A stretch of DNA of 64,000 bases from Arthrobacter jiangjiafuii (GTDB lineage Bacteria > Actinomycetota > Actinomycetes > Actinomycetales > Micrococcaceae), in the NCBI RefSeq assembly GCF_018622995.1, contig NZ_CP076022.1:1612001-1676000 (forward strand). Direction: 5' to 3'. Both the position numbers and the translations under genes were made by a program. Below, in pieces: positions 17,193 to 51,966 of this stretch (position 1 is its first letter; each line of letters begins with the position of its first letter). Below the pieces are notes generated by a model that saw only the letters and a list, made by a program, of their open reading frames with translations, was not told the DNA's origin and searched no databases.

Positions 17193-17274
17193 CTGCCTGA
17201 AGCCGTGCAAGGCGCCTGCCGCCGTCGTCCTCCAGCGGGTTCCGGCCCTGGCCGGCCGGGCCCGGCACACCGGA

Positions 17275-17706
17275 TCAGCCTGTCGGCTGGTCCGAGCTGC
17301 CAAGGGACCGCGCATAGGTGCACAACGCATCCCGGACGTACTGCGCCCCCGACGCGAACTCGCGGGTGTAGTTGGCCGCAAACCGGTCATCGGCCACGTA
17401 CATCTCGGCCAGGCCGGTCAGCATCTGCGGATCCGGCTGCGCCTGCCGCGAGCCGGCGGTGATCCAGCCGGCATGACGCCGGGCAATTTCCTGGGCCTCC
17501 GCACTGTCTGCGGGCAGCCCGCTCCGCTGCGCGGCATCCCAGGCATCCTGCAGTGCGGCATGCTCGGCCTGGAATCCGCGCTTCTGCGCCTCATCCAGCG
17601 AGCGCCACCACTGGTCCGATTCTGCGTAGGCCTCCCGGCCCCAGCGCTGTTCCACCTCCTCCCGGTATTGGGTGTGGTCAAAACCGTTGAACATTTGTTC
17701 TGCCAT
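17275..17706 (-). CDS. Stand-alone TipAS antibiotic-recognition protein
   Basis: 143 aa, about the length of the short TipAS form made from Streptomyces tipA. It begins MAEQMFNGFDHTQYREEVEQ and contains the helical TipAS domain to the end; a GGAGG SD precedes the ATG. In the same frame upstream, a coiled-coil linker typical of TipAL-type MerR proteins is still readable (LLREEQDRLQARIGAV, 17710-17790), but the MerR HTH domain is absent and a MerR-type promoter sits immediately before it. The protein probably sequesters thiopeptide-like or other multidrug ligands without acting as a regulator. Confidence 0.8.
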   Translation of the reverse strand: MAEQMFNGFDHTQYREEVEQRWGREAYAESDQWWRSLDEAQKRGFQAEHAALQDAWDAAQRSGLPADSAEAQEIARRHAGWITAGSRQAQPDPQMLTGLAEMYVADDRFAANYTREFASGAQYVRDALCTYARSLGSSDQPTG

Positions 17707-17810
17707 GATTTCTTTCCCTCCTTCCAAAGCCTCCAGAGTGGCGCGCACCGCTCCGATCCGCGCCTGTAACCGGTCCTGTTCCTCCCGCAGGAGCGCTCCA
17801 CAACACCACC

Positions 17811-17841
17811 AGCCTAGAAGTTGACGCTGCGTCAAAGTCAA
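17811..17841 (-). promoter_or_regulatory. MerR-type promoter/operator with 19-bp spacer
   Basis: On the minus strand, -35 TTGACT (17841-17836), a 19-bp spacer holding the palindrome TTGACGC-A-GCGTCAA, and -10 TAGGCT (17816-17811). The over-long spacer with a central dyad is diagnostic of promoters twisted open by MerR-family activators. No MerR HTH remains in the gene it drives. Confidence 0.75.
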
Positions 17842-17963
17842 CTCCTGCCGGCACCGGGTGCGTAACGCCAGATTCCGGGACGGACCGTATCGGCCGGACC
17901 GGCCCGCGACTAGGCTCGAAACACCGCACTGCGCGACGATTCCGGCCCTGGAGGTAACGCCCA

Positions 17964-19415
17964 ATGCCCGCCCATGCCGCTGAAACCAATCCCACTGACT
18001 CCACTAACTCCACCGGCCCCACCGGCCCCGCCGATCCTGGACCCCGCCACACCCGCAGAACCCACCCCTACCGTTCCCCCCGGATGTGGCTGCTGCCGCT
18101 GCTGGTGCTCCTGCTGCTCGGCGGAGCCGGATCCGCGCTGTACATTGGCGGACTCGGCAATCCGGGCGGAAACCTGAACCATTTTCCGATCGCCGTGGTC
18201 AACTCCGACCGCGGCGCCCAGGCCCCCGACGGCAGCCAGCAGAACCTCGGCGCCACCATCAGCGACCAGATGCAGCAGGGATTCTCAGCGAACGATGAGA
18301 TCGACCTGCGGGTGCTGTCCTGGGACGAGGCGCAGGACCAGATGCGCCACGGGCAGATCCACGCCGCCGTCGTCATCCCGGAATCCTTCTCCTCCGACGC
18401 CCTGGGCCTGGTGAGCGGCGCCCTCACACAGCAGGACGTCACCCGGCCGTCCATCACTGCATACACCGCACCGCTGGCCGGGCCGCTGGCCAGCAGCCTG
18501 GCGACCTCCGCAGTCGATACCGCCCTGGACCGGGCCAACACCAGCCTGGGGGAGCAGCTCACCGAGTCGGCGCAGACAGCGCAGACCCAGGCGCAGGCAC
18601 AGCTGCAGGCGGAGCTTCGCCGTCTGGGTACCACCCTGCCGCCCCAGCTGGCCCAACAAGCGGAGCCGAAGATCGACGGCACCGCTGCGGACCTGCTGCG
18701 GGAACCGATCCAGGTGACCACCACCGCGTATCAGGAACCGCCGCAGGGCAGCGCCCTGGGCATGGGGGCCTTCTTCTATTCGGTGCTGTTGATGATCGTC
18801 GGGGTCGCCGGCTCGGTGGCGATTCACTTCCTGGTGGACTCACGGCTAGGCGTGGCGCCGGTGGAACTGGGCCCCCGGTTTGTCCTTGGCCGCCCGGTGC
18901 ACCCGCCCCGGTGGAGCACCTATTTCATCAAATGGGGCATCGTGGTCCTGGCCGCCCTGCCCACCGCCGGGCTCATGATGTGGGTGGCCGCCGCCGTCGG
19001 CATGCCCATTCCGCACGGCGGCTGGTATTTCCTGACCACGTGGTTGTCCATCGTCACGGTTTCCGCCGTGACCTTTGCCCTGATCACCGTCCTGGGCAGC
19101 GCCGGAATGATCCTGTCGCTGATCTATGTGGTGTTCATGGGGCTGCCCGCCGCGAGCGGCGTGGTGCCGCTGGAGGCGCTGCCGGGCTTCTTCCGGTTCA
19201 TCGCCCCCGGCGAACCGCTCTACCAAATGACCATGGCGAACAGGGCGGTCCTCTATTTCGATGCCGATGCCAGCGCCGGAGTGCAGAGCGGCATCATCGG
19301 GATGCTGGTCCTGATCCTGATCGCCGTGGCCGTGGCGATGATCTTCTCGGTGATCTATGACCGGGCGCTGGGGCGGCGGGACGCGGGCGGAATACCTGGC
19401 GGAGCTGGGCATTGA
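17964..19415 (+). CDS. YhgE/Pip-like ABC-2-type membrane protein
   Basis: 483 aa. After a Pro/Thr-rich cytoplasmic tail, TM1 lies at about 42-62, then a long external domain (FPIAVVNSDRGAQ and the PESFSSDAL segment are family hallmarks), and four or five C-terminal TM helices from about 265 to 470. The family includes the phage-infection protein Pip and the ESX/secretion-linked YhgE. It may export or anchor something across the membrane. It is near a TetR regulator and a related 754-aa protein. Confidence 0.8.
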   Translation: MPAHAAETNPTDSTNSTGPTGPADPGPRHTRRTHPYRSPRMWLLPLLVLLLLGGAGSALYIGGLGNPGGNLNHFPIAVVNSDRGAQAPDGSQQNLGATISDQMQQGFSANDEIDLRVLSWDEAQDQMRHGQIHAAVVIPESFSSDALGLVSGALTQQDVTRPSITAYTAPLAGPLASSLATSAVDTALDRANTSLGEQLTESAQTAQTQAQAQLQAELRRLGTTLPPQLAQQAEPKIDGTAADLLREPIQVTTTAYQEPPQGSALGMGAFFYSVLLMIVGVAGSVAIHFLVDSRLGVAPVELGPRFVLGRPVHPPRWSTYFIKWGIVVLAALPTAGLMMWVAAAVGMPIPHGGWYFLTTWLSIVTVSAVTFALITVLGSAGMILSLIYVVFMGLPAASGVVPLEALPGFFRFIAPGEPLYQMTMANRAVLYFDADASAGVQSGIIGMLVLILIAVAVAMIFSVIYDRALGRRDAGGIPGGAGH

Positions 19416-19460
19416 ACCGGTGGAGCAGTGGAGCCGCCATGGCAACGGCCGCCGCGTGAG

Positions 19461-20123
19461 CTAGGGCAGGTAGAGCGGGGCGGGCCGGGAGATGAAATCG
19501 CCGGGATGGGTGACCGGGGCGGAGAGCATGCCGGCGCAGGAATCGATCAGGAAATAGCCGACGCCGGTCCAATTGGCCGGCTCGGTGCCATCTTGGACTC
19601 TCGCTTCATACTCGGCGCACACTCCGAGGACCATGCTGCCCAGGATCCAGGACCGGCCGTAGAGCGCCGTCCGGGAGATGGTGCCGAGCTCGGCTTCGAT
19701 GCGCCCGACCAGGGTCTCGATGAGCGGATTGGCGACGGCGGAGCGGGAGAGGACCTCGTGCATCGAGGGAACCGTCCGCATCTGGTTGACGAACCGTGCC
19801 CGCCAGCTGGGCAGCGGCAGGGAGGCCAGGTGCTCGACCCACGGCAGAATCAGGCAGGCCAGCAGGTCATGCACCCCGGCGTCGTCGGCGAGGTTGGAAA
19901 CCAAGGCCTCCCGGCGGAGGGCGGTATCAGCAGCGTGCCGTCCAATGAGGGCATGGAGCAGTTCGTCGCGTCCACCGAAGTGGTACGCGACGGCGGAGTG
20001 GTTGGCTGTGCCGGCCCGCTCCGCGATGCGCCGGTTCGAGACCGCGTCGATGCCGTTGGTGGCAAAAAGCTCTTCGGCGGCATCCAGTAGGACTTCCCGC
20101 GCATGATCACCGTGCTGGCCCAT
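19461..20123 (-). CDS. TetR-family regulator
   Basis: 220 aa from the ATG at 20123, chosen because GGGGAGGG lies just upstream; the open frame reaches 20138. The N-terminal HTH (LLDAAEELFATNGIDAVSNR, then IAERAGTANHSAVAYHF) covers about 12-60. It is divergent from the large two-repeat membrane protein, with the palindrome TTACGCC-ACAT-GGCGTAA between them, so it probably represses that gene. Confidence 0.9.
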   Translation of the reverse strand: MGQHGDHAREVLLDAAEELFATNGIDAVSNRRIAERAGTANHSAVAYHFGGRDELLHALIGRHAADTALRREALVSNLADDAGVHDLLACLILPWVEHLASLPLPSWRARFVNQMRTVPSMHEVLSRSAVANPLIETLVGRIEAELGTISRTALYGRSWILGSMVLGVCAEYEARVQDGTEPANWTGVGYFLIDSCAGMLSAPVTHPGDFISRPAPLYLP

Positions 20124-20169
20124 GGACCCTCCCCTCATTTCCCCGCTGTGTTGCGTCGATTAACCCATT

Positions 20170-20187
20170 TTACGCCACATGGCGTAA
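20170..20187. promoter_or_regulatory. Candidate TetR operator TTACGCC-N4-GGCGTAA
   Basis: A perfect 7-bp inverted repeat in an AT-rich setting (ATTTTACGCC...GGCGTAATTTTA), midway between the divergent TetR gene and membrane protein gene. The best-formed operator candidate in the window. Confidence 0.65.
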
Positions 20188-20278
20188 TTTTAACGAGCTG
20201 GTCTCACCGGCCGCGCATTGGACCGTCGCGTTCATGCCTCTCGCATCACCCATCGATCCACAGCACAGGAGCACGACC

Positions 20279-22543
20279 TTGAGCCCCACGTCCCCCACGT
20301 CCACCGACTATCCGCCGGGCGAGGCTCCAACAGCGCCAGGCGAAACTGCGGCGAGCGCCGCCGTCCCCGGCGCACCTGACCGTGAAGCAGCAGCCCTGAA
20401 GCGGGCCAAGGCGGAAAAAATCGGGCGCTATGTCGCGATGTTCCTGATGCCGCTGATGATGGTGTCCATGCTGGTCGGCGGCTACCTTGCGGCCATGCAC
20501 GCCCCCACCCCGCATGACATGCCCATAGCCGTCACCGGCTCGACCGCGCAGGTGCAGCAGTTCACCGACGGACTGGAGTCCGGAAACCCGGATGCCGTCG
20601 ATGTGCGGGTCGTGGAATCCGAGCAGGAAGCCCGGCAGCTGATTCTGGACCGGGAAGCATCCGGTGCCGTTTCCCTGTCCGCCGGCAGCGCCACCGTCTA
20701 CACGGCCAGTGCCGCAGGTGCCTCCCAGTCCAGCAGCGTCACCGCGCTGTTGGCTCCGCAGGTCCTCGCGCAGGGCCTGGCCCTGACCACCGAAGACCTC
20801 GCGCCGCTGCCGGACAGCGACATGGCCGGCCTCGGTGCCATGTTCATGACGACGGCCCTGATGCTGGCCGGCTACATGCCGCTGAGCCTGATCCTGTCGA
20901 ACTCGCCGGAACTGCTGAGGTTCCGCCGCTTCGTTCCGCTGCTGGCGGGCTGGTCGGCGCTGATCGCCGCACTGGTCTGGACCGTCGTCGGGCCCATCAT
21001 GGGGATCGTCGAGGGCCACACCGCCGCCGTCCTGGGCATCTGCGCCCTCGCCGTGTTCGCCGTCGGCAGCGTCCAGCTGTTCCTCACCCGGATCCTGGGC
21101 CCCATGGCCGTGCTGGTGGGCATGCTGTTCCTGATGGTCCTGGGTGTTCCCGCATCCAACATGAGCATGTCGGTGCATACGATGCCGTGGATCTACCCCT
21201 ACCTGCACGGCTTCCTGCCGGCGGCCGCCACGGGCGAGTCGCTGCGTTCCGTGCTCTACTTTGATGGCAACGGAGCCGGGAGCCACCTGCTGGTCCTGGT
21301 CATCGGCGCCGTCGCCGCGCTGCTTCTCACACTCGGCATCGACGCCCGCAAGCGCCGCCGCAAGCCCAACGCCGCCCCGCCTGCCATCAACGTGGCCTCG
21401 CTGCATGGCGGCCCGCGCCCGAAGAGCCGTACCTGGCGCTACGTGACCCTGGCCTTCTTCCCGCTGACCATGGTGGTCATGATGCTCTCGCTCATGCTCG
21501 GTGCCATGCACCAGCCCGAACCGCGCGACATGCCCGTCGCCGTCGTCGGCGCCACCGCAGAGCAGGCGGAGCAGGCAGTGTCCGGCCTGGACGAACAGAT
21601 GTCCGGGCTCTTTGACCTGCGGGCCGTGGACTCGGCAGACGAGGCACGCGGGCAGGTCCGGGACCGCACGGTCGTGGCAGCGTTTGTGTTGCCGTCCGCC
21701 GGGAACCCCACCTCCACCCTGCTGACTAACGAAGCCGGAGGCATGAGCGCGCAGCAGGTGGTGCTGTCCGTCTTCGGCCAGGTTGCGGCAGGCCAGCAGG
21801 TGGAACTGGCCACCGAGAACCTGGCTCCGCTGAAGGATTCCGATTCAATGGGCATGGCCACCATGTACCTGGCCATGGGCTGGATCATGGCGGGCTTCAT
21901 GATCATTGTGGTTGGCTCCACAGCCGCCCCGGCCAGCCGGCCGCTGCGCAAGCTGGTGCCGATTGTCCTGGCCTGGGCCGTGGGCATCTCCGCGTTCCTC
22001 TGGGTAATTGCCGATGTCTTTGTCGGCGCCATCGACGGCCACTTCTGGCCGCTCCTGGCAGCAGGTACCGTGGCCGTATTCTGCGTGGCCATGTTCACCG
22101 CCGTCTTCGACCGGCTGATCGGCATGCTGGCCATCCTGCCGGTCATCGGCATCCTGATGTTCCTGGGCGTGCCGGCCTCCGGCGCGGCCATGTCGATCTA
22201 CATGGAACCGGAGATTTTCCGCTTCCTGCATGAGATCCTGCCGATGCCGGCTGCCGTGGAGTCCATCCGGTCGATTCTGTACTTCGACGGCGACACCGTC
22301 TGGACCCACATGCGGACGCTGGGCATCTGGGGAGCCGTGTCCCTGGTTACGGTGATGATCATCGACCGGTTCAAGCCGGTGCGCACCGAACCGCACCCGG
22401 CCGGGGAACCGGCGGGAGAAATCTCCGGCGCCTATGACGCTTCAACCGAGACTGCTGCGCCGTCCGGTGCTTCGGCCGAGGCCGGGACCGAGGCCGCTAC
22501 CGAGAGCGCTGCGCCGGCCGGAAAGCACGCAGCTTCCGTCTAG
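20279..22543 (+). CDS. Large membrane protein with internally duplicated YhgE/ABC-2-like halves
   Basis: 754 aa from the TTG at 20279, which has AGGAG 7 nt upstream; an ATG at 20234 (769 aa) lacks an SD. Two similar halves each have a signal-anchor-like TM, the motif HDMPIAV/RDMPVAV, a 130-residue external domain ending in TEDLAPL/TENLAPL, four or five TM helices, and the closing motif ESLRSVLYFDG / ESIRSILYFDG. This is a fused tandem duplication of one transporter-like unit. Regulation by the divergent TetR is likely, so an efflux or export role is plausible. Confidence 0.82.
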   Translation: MSPTSPTSTDYPPGEAPTAPGETAASAAVPGAPDREAAALKRAKAEKIGRYVAMFLMPLMMVSMLVGGYLAAMHAPTPHDMPIAVTGSTAQVQQFTDGLESGNPDAVDVRVVESEQEARQLILDREASGAVSLSAGSATVYTASAAGASQSSSVTALLAPQVLAQGLALTTEDLAPLPDSDMAGLGAMFMTTALMLAGYMPLSLILSNSPELLRFRRFVPLLAGWSALIAALVWTVVGPIMGIVEGHTAAVLGICALAVFAVGSVQLFLTRILGPMAVLVGMLFLMVLGVPASNMSMSVHTMPWIYPYLHGFLPAAATGESLRSVLYFDGNGAGSHLLVLVIGAVAALLLTLGIDARKRRRKPNAAPPAINVASLHGGPRPKSRTWRYVTLAFFPLTMVVMMLSLMLGAMHQPEPRDMPVAVVGATAEQAEQAVSGLDEQMSGLFDLRAVDSADEARGQVRDRTVVAAFVLPSAGNPTSTLLTNEAGGMSAQQVVLSVFGQVAAGQQVELATENLAPLKDSDSMGMATMYLAMGWIMAGFMIIVVGSTAAPASRPLRKLVPIVLAWAVGISAFLWVIADVFVGAIDGHFWPLLAAGTVAVFCVAMFTAVFDRLIGMLAILPVIGILMFLGVPASGAAMSIYMEPEIFRFLHEILPMPAAVESIRSILYFDGDTVWTHMRTLGIWGAVSLVTVMIIDRFKPVRTEPHPAGEPAGEISGAYDASTETAAPSGASAEAGTEAATESAAPAGKHAASV

Positions 22544-50916: not shown

Positions 50917-51120
50917 GCGCCGGGCCATGGAAAGTGGGGAGTGGAAGCGTCCCTCTCAACGAGCTGTACTTCTCGGCGTCGGGTCACAGTGTGCCGTTCG
51001 ACGATGCCTTTTGGGCGGCTCGATTCGAACGCGGTAGGGTGATGCAAAATTGCACCGTCCGCAGCGTCAAGGAGCCCGACTTGGGCGCGACGTCCCGCCC
51101 CGCGATGGAAGGCCCCGCAC

Positions 51121-51966
51121 ATGGAATCATCCCTTATCCCGCTGCCGCCGCGTCAGATCGAAATCGGTGACGCGGCACAATTCGTTGGCACCACACCGGA
51201 AGCGATCGGTGGCTACCACGAGAATGGTCTGCTTCCCGAGCCCGAACGGGGCAGCGACGGCCACCGCCGATACGGCTACGAGGACATGATCCGGCTGCTG
51301 TGGATCCACAAGATGGTCGACGCCGGGATCGCCATGGACGACATTCGTGAAGTCCTTGCTGACGCGGCTCCTGCTGGTGTCGACAGCGGCCGCGAAACCG
51401 CCGTCGTACAGCGCATGCGCACCTTGGAGGGCCGGATGGGTCTACTCTCCGACCTCGTAGCCGGCCGCCTCAAGGGCCTGCCCGAGGGCTCACTGCGCCA
51501 GACGGACCTGGACAACCTGCTGGTCATGGAGCGGTTCTTCGGGCCACTCGGTGCGGCCGTCAATGCCGGCCGTTATATCGTCCTGGCCACTCACCCGGGT
51601 CTGCGGGAGGAGTCCGACCGCGTCGAGGCCGCCGAGGACGCACTCGATGACACGGTCGCCGCCGACGACCCCCGCGTGGCGCAAGCCGCTGCCGAACGGC
51701 ACGCCTTCGAGCTGAAGCTGGACGCCGCCATCAACAATTCCGGCCAGGCGCAGAGCGACAATGCGCTTTTTGATTCCTGGGATGCTCTGCACCCCGCCGG
51801 CGCTGAAATTGCGGACGGGGCCGGCGGCCAGGACGCTGGCAGCGGGGAAAAGTGCGTGAGCCTCATCGAGGCTATTGGAATGATGCCCTACGATTACTCC
51901 CCGGCCCGCCTGCGTTGCATGGAACTGACCGGAGAACTCGCCGCCAACGAGTTGCCCGCTTCCTAA
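51121..51966 (+). CDS. MerR-family transcriptional regulator
   Basis: 281 aa. MerR HTH at about 12-60 (IEIGDAAQFVGTTPEAIGGY, NGLLPEPERGSDGHRRYGYE), a helical effector region and a Cys-containing C-terminus (GEKCVSL, LRCMEL). No metal-binding CxxC arrangement. TGCAA-AA-TTGCA lies at about 51043-51054 upstream. No target gene is obvious; the next gene has its own promoter. Confidence 0.85.
   Translation: MESSLIPLPPRQIEIGDAAQFVGTTPEAIGGYHENGLLPEPERGSDGHRRYGYEDMIRLLWIHKMVDAGIAMDDIREVLADAAPAGVDSGRETAVVQRMRTLEGRMGLLSDLVAGRLKGLPEGSLRQTDLDNLLVMERFFGPLGAAVNAGRYIVLATHPGLREESDRVEAAEDALDDTVAADDPRVAQAAAERHAFELKLDAAINNSGQAQSDNALFDSWDALHPAGAEIADGAGGQDAGSGEKCVSLIEAIGMMPYDYSPARLRCMELTGELAANELPAS

Follow-up and report, generated by a model that had tools for sequence, protein, structure and literature searches.

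The tipA gene of S. lividans has two in-frame starts, one for the protein TipAL and one for TipAS (PMC7762955), and albA of K. oxytoca likewise gives rise to a long and a short form (PMC12531866). The short forms of both organisms sequester drug (PMC7762955, PMC12531866). With respect to the residues involved, the S. lividans TipA paper mentions only 'an active cysteine' (PMC7762955). A search of the open-access literature returned no paper on natural TipAS genes devoid of the HTH, which does not exclude that one exists. The window, a 64,000-nucleotide stretch of the Arthrobacter jiangjiafuii genome, contains such a gene (Table 1).

Table 1. The reduced tipA locus; positions are those of the window.
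Feature	Position	Strand	Details and basis
TipAS-only gene	17275..17706	-	143 aa, ATG start; ORF and Pfam PF07739
Shine-Dalgarno AAGGAGG before the TipAS ATG	17717..17723	-	counterpart of the relatives' internal TipAS ribosome site
TipAL coiled-coil remnant	17707..17787	-	27 in-frame codons, read 17787-17707: REEQDRLQARIGAVRATLEALEGGKEI; gapless alignment to the relatives' TipAL
Deletion junction region	17788..17810	-	placed to a range only; length comparison with the five nearest relatives
MerR-type promoter TTGACT-N19-TAGGCT	17811..17841	-	-35 TTGACT at 17841-17836, -10 TAGGCT at 17816-17811, spacer 19 bp; same promoter precedes the relatives' full-length TipAL genes
Central dyad TTGACG-CAG-CGTCAA (predicted operator)	17821..17835	-	genome-wide operator search

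TipAS was the sole Pfam match of the product (PF07739, E = 5.7e-30, 104.7 bits with a gathering cut-off of 23.8, profile positions 1-117 of 117 covered). The Pfam search detected no MerR domain even in the 188-aa in-frame extension to 17841. The protein belongs to the TipAS domain family and not to the MerR regulators. Its ATG is located ten bases downstream of the AAGGAGG. The earlier note had described this ORF with in-frame remains of a TipAL coil upstream, a MerR promoter with a 19-bp spacer and central dyad, and a missing HTH, and all three were found as described. No ATG, GTG or TTG occurred in frame in the stretch that separates promoter and coil remnant. A chance occurrence of promoter and dyad was rejected because they are unique in the 3.59-Mb genome and recur upstream of nearly all full-length TipAL genes of the relatives. 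The genome consists of one complete contig, is 100% complete and has a single TipAS gene. Of the traits of TipAL, the locus thus has the upstream 19-bp-spacer promoter with its dyad and the internal TipAS start with its own ribosome site; the MerR HTH, which in TipAL forms the N-terminus and is fused to coil and TipAS, is gone with the deleted segment.

The AlphaFold model of the 143-aa protein had a pLDDT of 85 with nine disordered N-terminal residues. It superimposed on S. lividans TipAS with Z-scores of 13.7 (1ny9; 94 aligned residues, rmsd 1.9) and 13.6 (2mbz; 132 aligned), and on AlbA with a Z-score of about 8. All invariant TipAS positions are retained, and the lid-region phenylalanines, as read off the alignment, coincide with those of S. 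lividans TipAS. The S. lividans motif MHTCLGEMYV, whose Cys we take to be the covalent thiopeptide-attaching residue, aligns with MLTGLAEMYV of the window protein, i.e. Cys is replaced by Gly. This cysteine, which is not required for PF07739 membership, is absent in the relatives, too. Because the attaching position is a Gly in the window protein and its relatives, thiopeptides are, judged by sequence, doubtful as ligands. The product, if expressed, would work like the short isoform of TipA, and it probably sequesters drug.

A TipAS match was present in 23 of the 29 genomes of the genus. The nine closest relatives (G008, G009, G019, G020, G021, G015, G025, G026 and G013) possess an intact MerR HTH-coil-TipAS fusion preceded by a promoter of the same type. 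A synteny check of G009, G020, G015 and G025 located tipA between a NUDIX gene and an ABC2-membrane/TetR/ABC2-membrane set, and because of these conserved neighbours the window gene and the fusion genes are considered orthologous. In the window itself, two ABC2-membrane (DUF3533-like) genes flank a TetR gene at 17964-22543, a set that is conserved beside tipA in relatives and is possibly a linked drug-export unit. The distance from the -35 element to the TipAS start was 258-262 bp shorter in the window than in the five nearest relatives. The lost segment comprises the ribosome site and start codon of TipAL together with the HTH and the first half of the coil.

When the family was queried with full-length TipAL, the window match was the only one among the matches listed to start at query residue 85; all others listed started at residues 1-4. 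Since ranking by score would keep distant truncated copies out of sight, this search was followed by one with only the TipAS domain as query. In a gene tree the window gene nested among full-length genes. A natural deletion of the HTH, as suggested in the earlier note, is therefore supported by the fusion in nine relatives, by the roughly 260 missing bp and by the single complete contig, and alignment with the relatives' TipAL placed the loss (Table 1); yet it is not confined to the HTH. As counter-evidence the earlier note had named related genomes that have the same short gene with an intact HTH gene elsewhere in the operon, and sequencing errors that would restore a full MerR frame. No HTH gene was found in the operon, and frame restoration was rejected for lack of MerR sequence in any frame from promoter to TipAS; in a genome assembled into one complete contig, sequencing error is also unlikely. 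The window gene is a natural, lineage-specific truncation of TipAL to TipAS by a deletion of about 260 bp in a soil-type bacterium.

The internal ATG of TipAS is conserved in this clade. In a set of 44 genes, i.e. the window gene and its relatives, the mean Shine-Dalgarno match at the TipAS start was 5.09 compared to a synonymous expectation of 4.07, and none of 2000 simulated means was as high; as the genes are related, the result is indicative. Because TipAS already had its own conserved internal ribosome site, its start outlived the deletion, and the part that remained still forms a unit from which the short form can be expressed.

In a branch codon model the omega of the window TipAS branch was 0.084 (profile interval roughly 0.03-0.18) against a background of 0.13, and neutrality was rejected (2dlnL 31.7). 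As a control we took the coil remnant, for which no translation is expected after the deletion. It had an omega of 0.105 on the window branch and neutrality was rejected as well (2dlnL 9.7). Because this remnant also looks constrained, the most straightforward interpretation is a deletion that is young relative to the branch. The constraint on TipAS thus mostly, maybe entirely, predates the deletion. With the control being equally constrained, dN/dS was set aside as proof of present function.

Among 149 Micrococcaceae genomes, ORFs too short for the fusion were seen in G000, G125, G158, G166, G079, G080 and G062, the first six of which were read in detail. G158 and G079 had each lost the HTH independently, with TipAS intact, through a deletion that lies behind a promoter of the same type. 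Another independent loss with intact TipAS was found in a different clade (G125), where the promoter was partly degraded. G166 had a frameshift in tipA, and G080 a decayed copy. Elsewhere the promoter and half of the HTH were lost (G007), a stop interrupted the TipAL coil (G192), or one-base frameshifts occurred that may be sequencing errors (G129, G183). In G297, near G079, the loss had proceeded to part of TipAS. The lesions in the 149 genomes amounted to three deletions (G000, G158, G079) and one frameshift (G129) on the HTH/coil side and one frameshift (G166) on the TipAS side, numbers that are too small for a conclusion on selection for HTH loss and include frameshifts that may be sequencing errors. 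In G192 the stop in the coil is an amber codon; the HTH ORF before it and the TipAS after it, which has its own start, are both intact, so that the regulator is split (L116). G192 and G287 additionally have TipAS-only paralogues (L124 and L123) about 1.4 kb from the TipAL gene, which is full-length in G287 and carries the coil stop in G192. A RelE-like toxin-type gene lies directly upstream of both paralogues; TipAS may be the third member of a toxin-antitoxin unit there.

Across the class, several genomes contained TipAS-only genes without an HTH upstream. In a genus with genomes of 1.3-1.4 Mb they were present in five of six sampled genomes. These short genes (L126-L130) were well conserved while their upstream neighbours mostly differed; the drug-binding domain was retained through genome reduction. 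Seven distant matches were obtained in a plasmid search, with no short orthologue among them. The parallel losses and the TipAS-only genes of the class demonstrate that the end state is of a known kind and was reached more than once. TipAS-only versions are already established in other actinobacteria, and the window case is clear but fairly ordinary. Because TipAS has its own internal ribosome site, a change from sensor to buffer would be possible in one step. That HTH loss with retention of promoter and TipAS was repeatedly selected in Micrococcaceae, turning an inducible sensor into a constitutive low-level drug buffer, appears rather unlikely to us. The parallel cases nevertheless make the question an evolutionary rather than an anecdotal one.

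The remaining regulatory equipment was inspected genome-wide. Six MerR HTH genes are left, by sequence presumably of HspR, SoxR, GyrI-linked and other types; none of their HTH sequences is TipAL-like, and no match to the N-terminal half of TipAL (TipAN) was obtained in the genome at 1e-15. Relocation of the HTH within the genome was rejected on these grounds. A search of the 3.59-Mb genome for the degenerate operator with up to two mismatches retrieved only the tipA site and its overlapping match on the reverse strand. Because the dyad occurs nowhere else, no other regulator visibly uses it, and further users of the operator were rejected. A scan of 17200-18000, of a type that covers actinobacterial promoters poorly, found no additional sigma-70-type promoter or terminator. 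One of the six MerR HTH genes lies in the window at 51121-51966 (+) and has no recognised effector domain; upstream of it, at 51061-51070, one GCAGCGTCAA half-site is found, the same as in the tipA dyad. The simplest model would be an orphaned promoter with basal activity.

Our preferred reading, with a probability of about 0.58, is that tipA was cut down by a natural deletion and that the short form is made at a basal level as a drug buffer. The ancestor would have had one tipA gene for two proteins, TipAL (MerR HTH, coil, TipAS) and TipAS alone. Ligand-bound TipAL would have activated its own 19-bp-spacer promoter, and TipAS would have been translated separately via the internal ribosome site. 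The deletion of about 260 bp presumably fused the transcript start to the middle of the coil, with loss of the TipAL start and HTH and preservation of promoter, dyad and internal TipAS start. Because the TipAL start and HTH were taken and the TipAS start was spared, the gene can yield the short form alone. The genome would thus retain the drug-binding short form and a promoter without its activator. TipAS is most likely produced at a low, ligand-independent level and has most likely kept its binding of hydrophobic drug-like molecules; it would then act as an uncoupled buffer, from which the cell may benefit. The constraint on the coil remnant, the lack of another promoter-like site in the scan of 17200-18000 and the decay after HTH loss in related lineages, as in G297 beside G079, speak against a buffer. 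Indeed, the same deletion may have left a TipAS remnant without present function, i.e. the regulator was lost by chance and the ORF has not yet decayed. We take this possibility seriously but do not favor it: the coil remnant is constrained as much as TipAS on this branch, hence the deletion is young, the only known activator of the promoter is lost, and the family has many copies of tipA that have decayed (G080, G023, G297, G180); on the other hand, the TipAS ORF is intact, as are its ribosome site, the promoter and the invariant residues, and TipAS-only genes persist elsewhere, e.g. in the genome-reduced genus.

The suggestion of the earlier note that another MerR protein drives the promoter, which would keep TipAS inducible in trans, lost ground. 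The dyad is intact and six MerR HTH genes are at hand, including the one with the half-site upstream; yet with no TipAL-like HTH, no TipAN match and a dyad confined to tipA we regard such control as very improbable. An assembly or sequencing artefact is even harder to sustain. Although the species is represented by one genome, this is a complete single contig, a clean junction with about 260 bp missing is atypical of sequencing error, and relatives display parallel independent deletions. Least credible is an ancestral short gene to which the relatives added the HTH by fusion, as the TipAS-only genes in the class might suggest. Every one of the nearest relatives has the fusion, as does most of the family, the tree nests the window gene among full-length genes, and the coil fragment and TipAL operator make sense only as remnants.

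Taken together, deletion has naturally knocked out the regulator half of tipA at the window locus, with operator, promoter and binding half remaining. The gene is a minimal autoregulated drug-resistance gene, and the locus offers a direct test of the role of the short form without the activator. The TipAS isoform of S. lividans (PMC7762955; PDB 1ny9, 2mbz) is the same domain with a similar boundary and an in-frame start situated after the coil, and its gene has a MerR-type promoter as in the window and is autoregulated. S. lividans, however, also makes TipAL while the window genome can make the short form only, and its thiopeptide-attaching Cys is a Gly in the window and relatives. K. oxytoca AlbA/AlbAS (PMC6078987, PMC12531866) resembles the window form in that a TipAS-type region alone acts as an antibiotic-sequestering short isoform, but AlbA has tandem TipAS-like domains, binds albicidin, and its long form is still encoded. 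Independent effector domains of the Cass2 type (PMC3048380) are likewise drug-binding domains of MerR/AraC-type regulators without a DNA-binding domain, yet with an unrelated GyrI-like fold, in an integron cassette and without an orphaned operator. The actinobacterial loci L126-L130, L134 and L137 share the short TipAS and, like the window gene, lack a MerR HTH both in frame and upstream; in contrast to the window, no remnant coil or TipAL promoter was recognised there. The TipAS-only state is a lineage trait in one actinobacterial genus, whereas in the window it is a single-species deletion.
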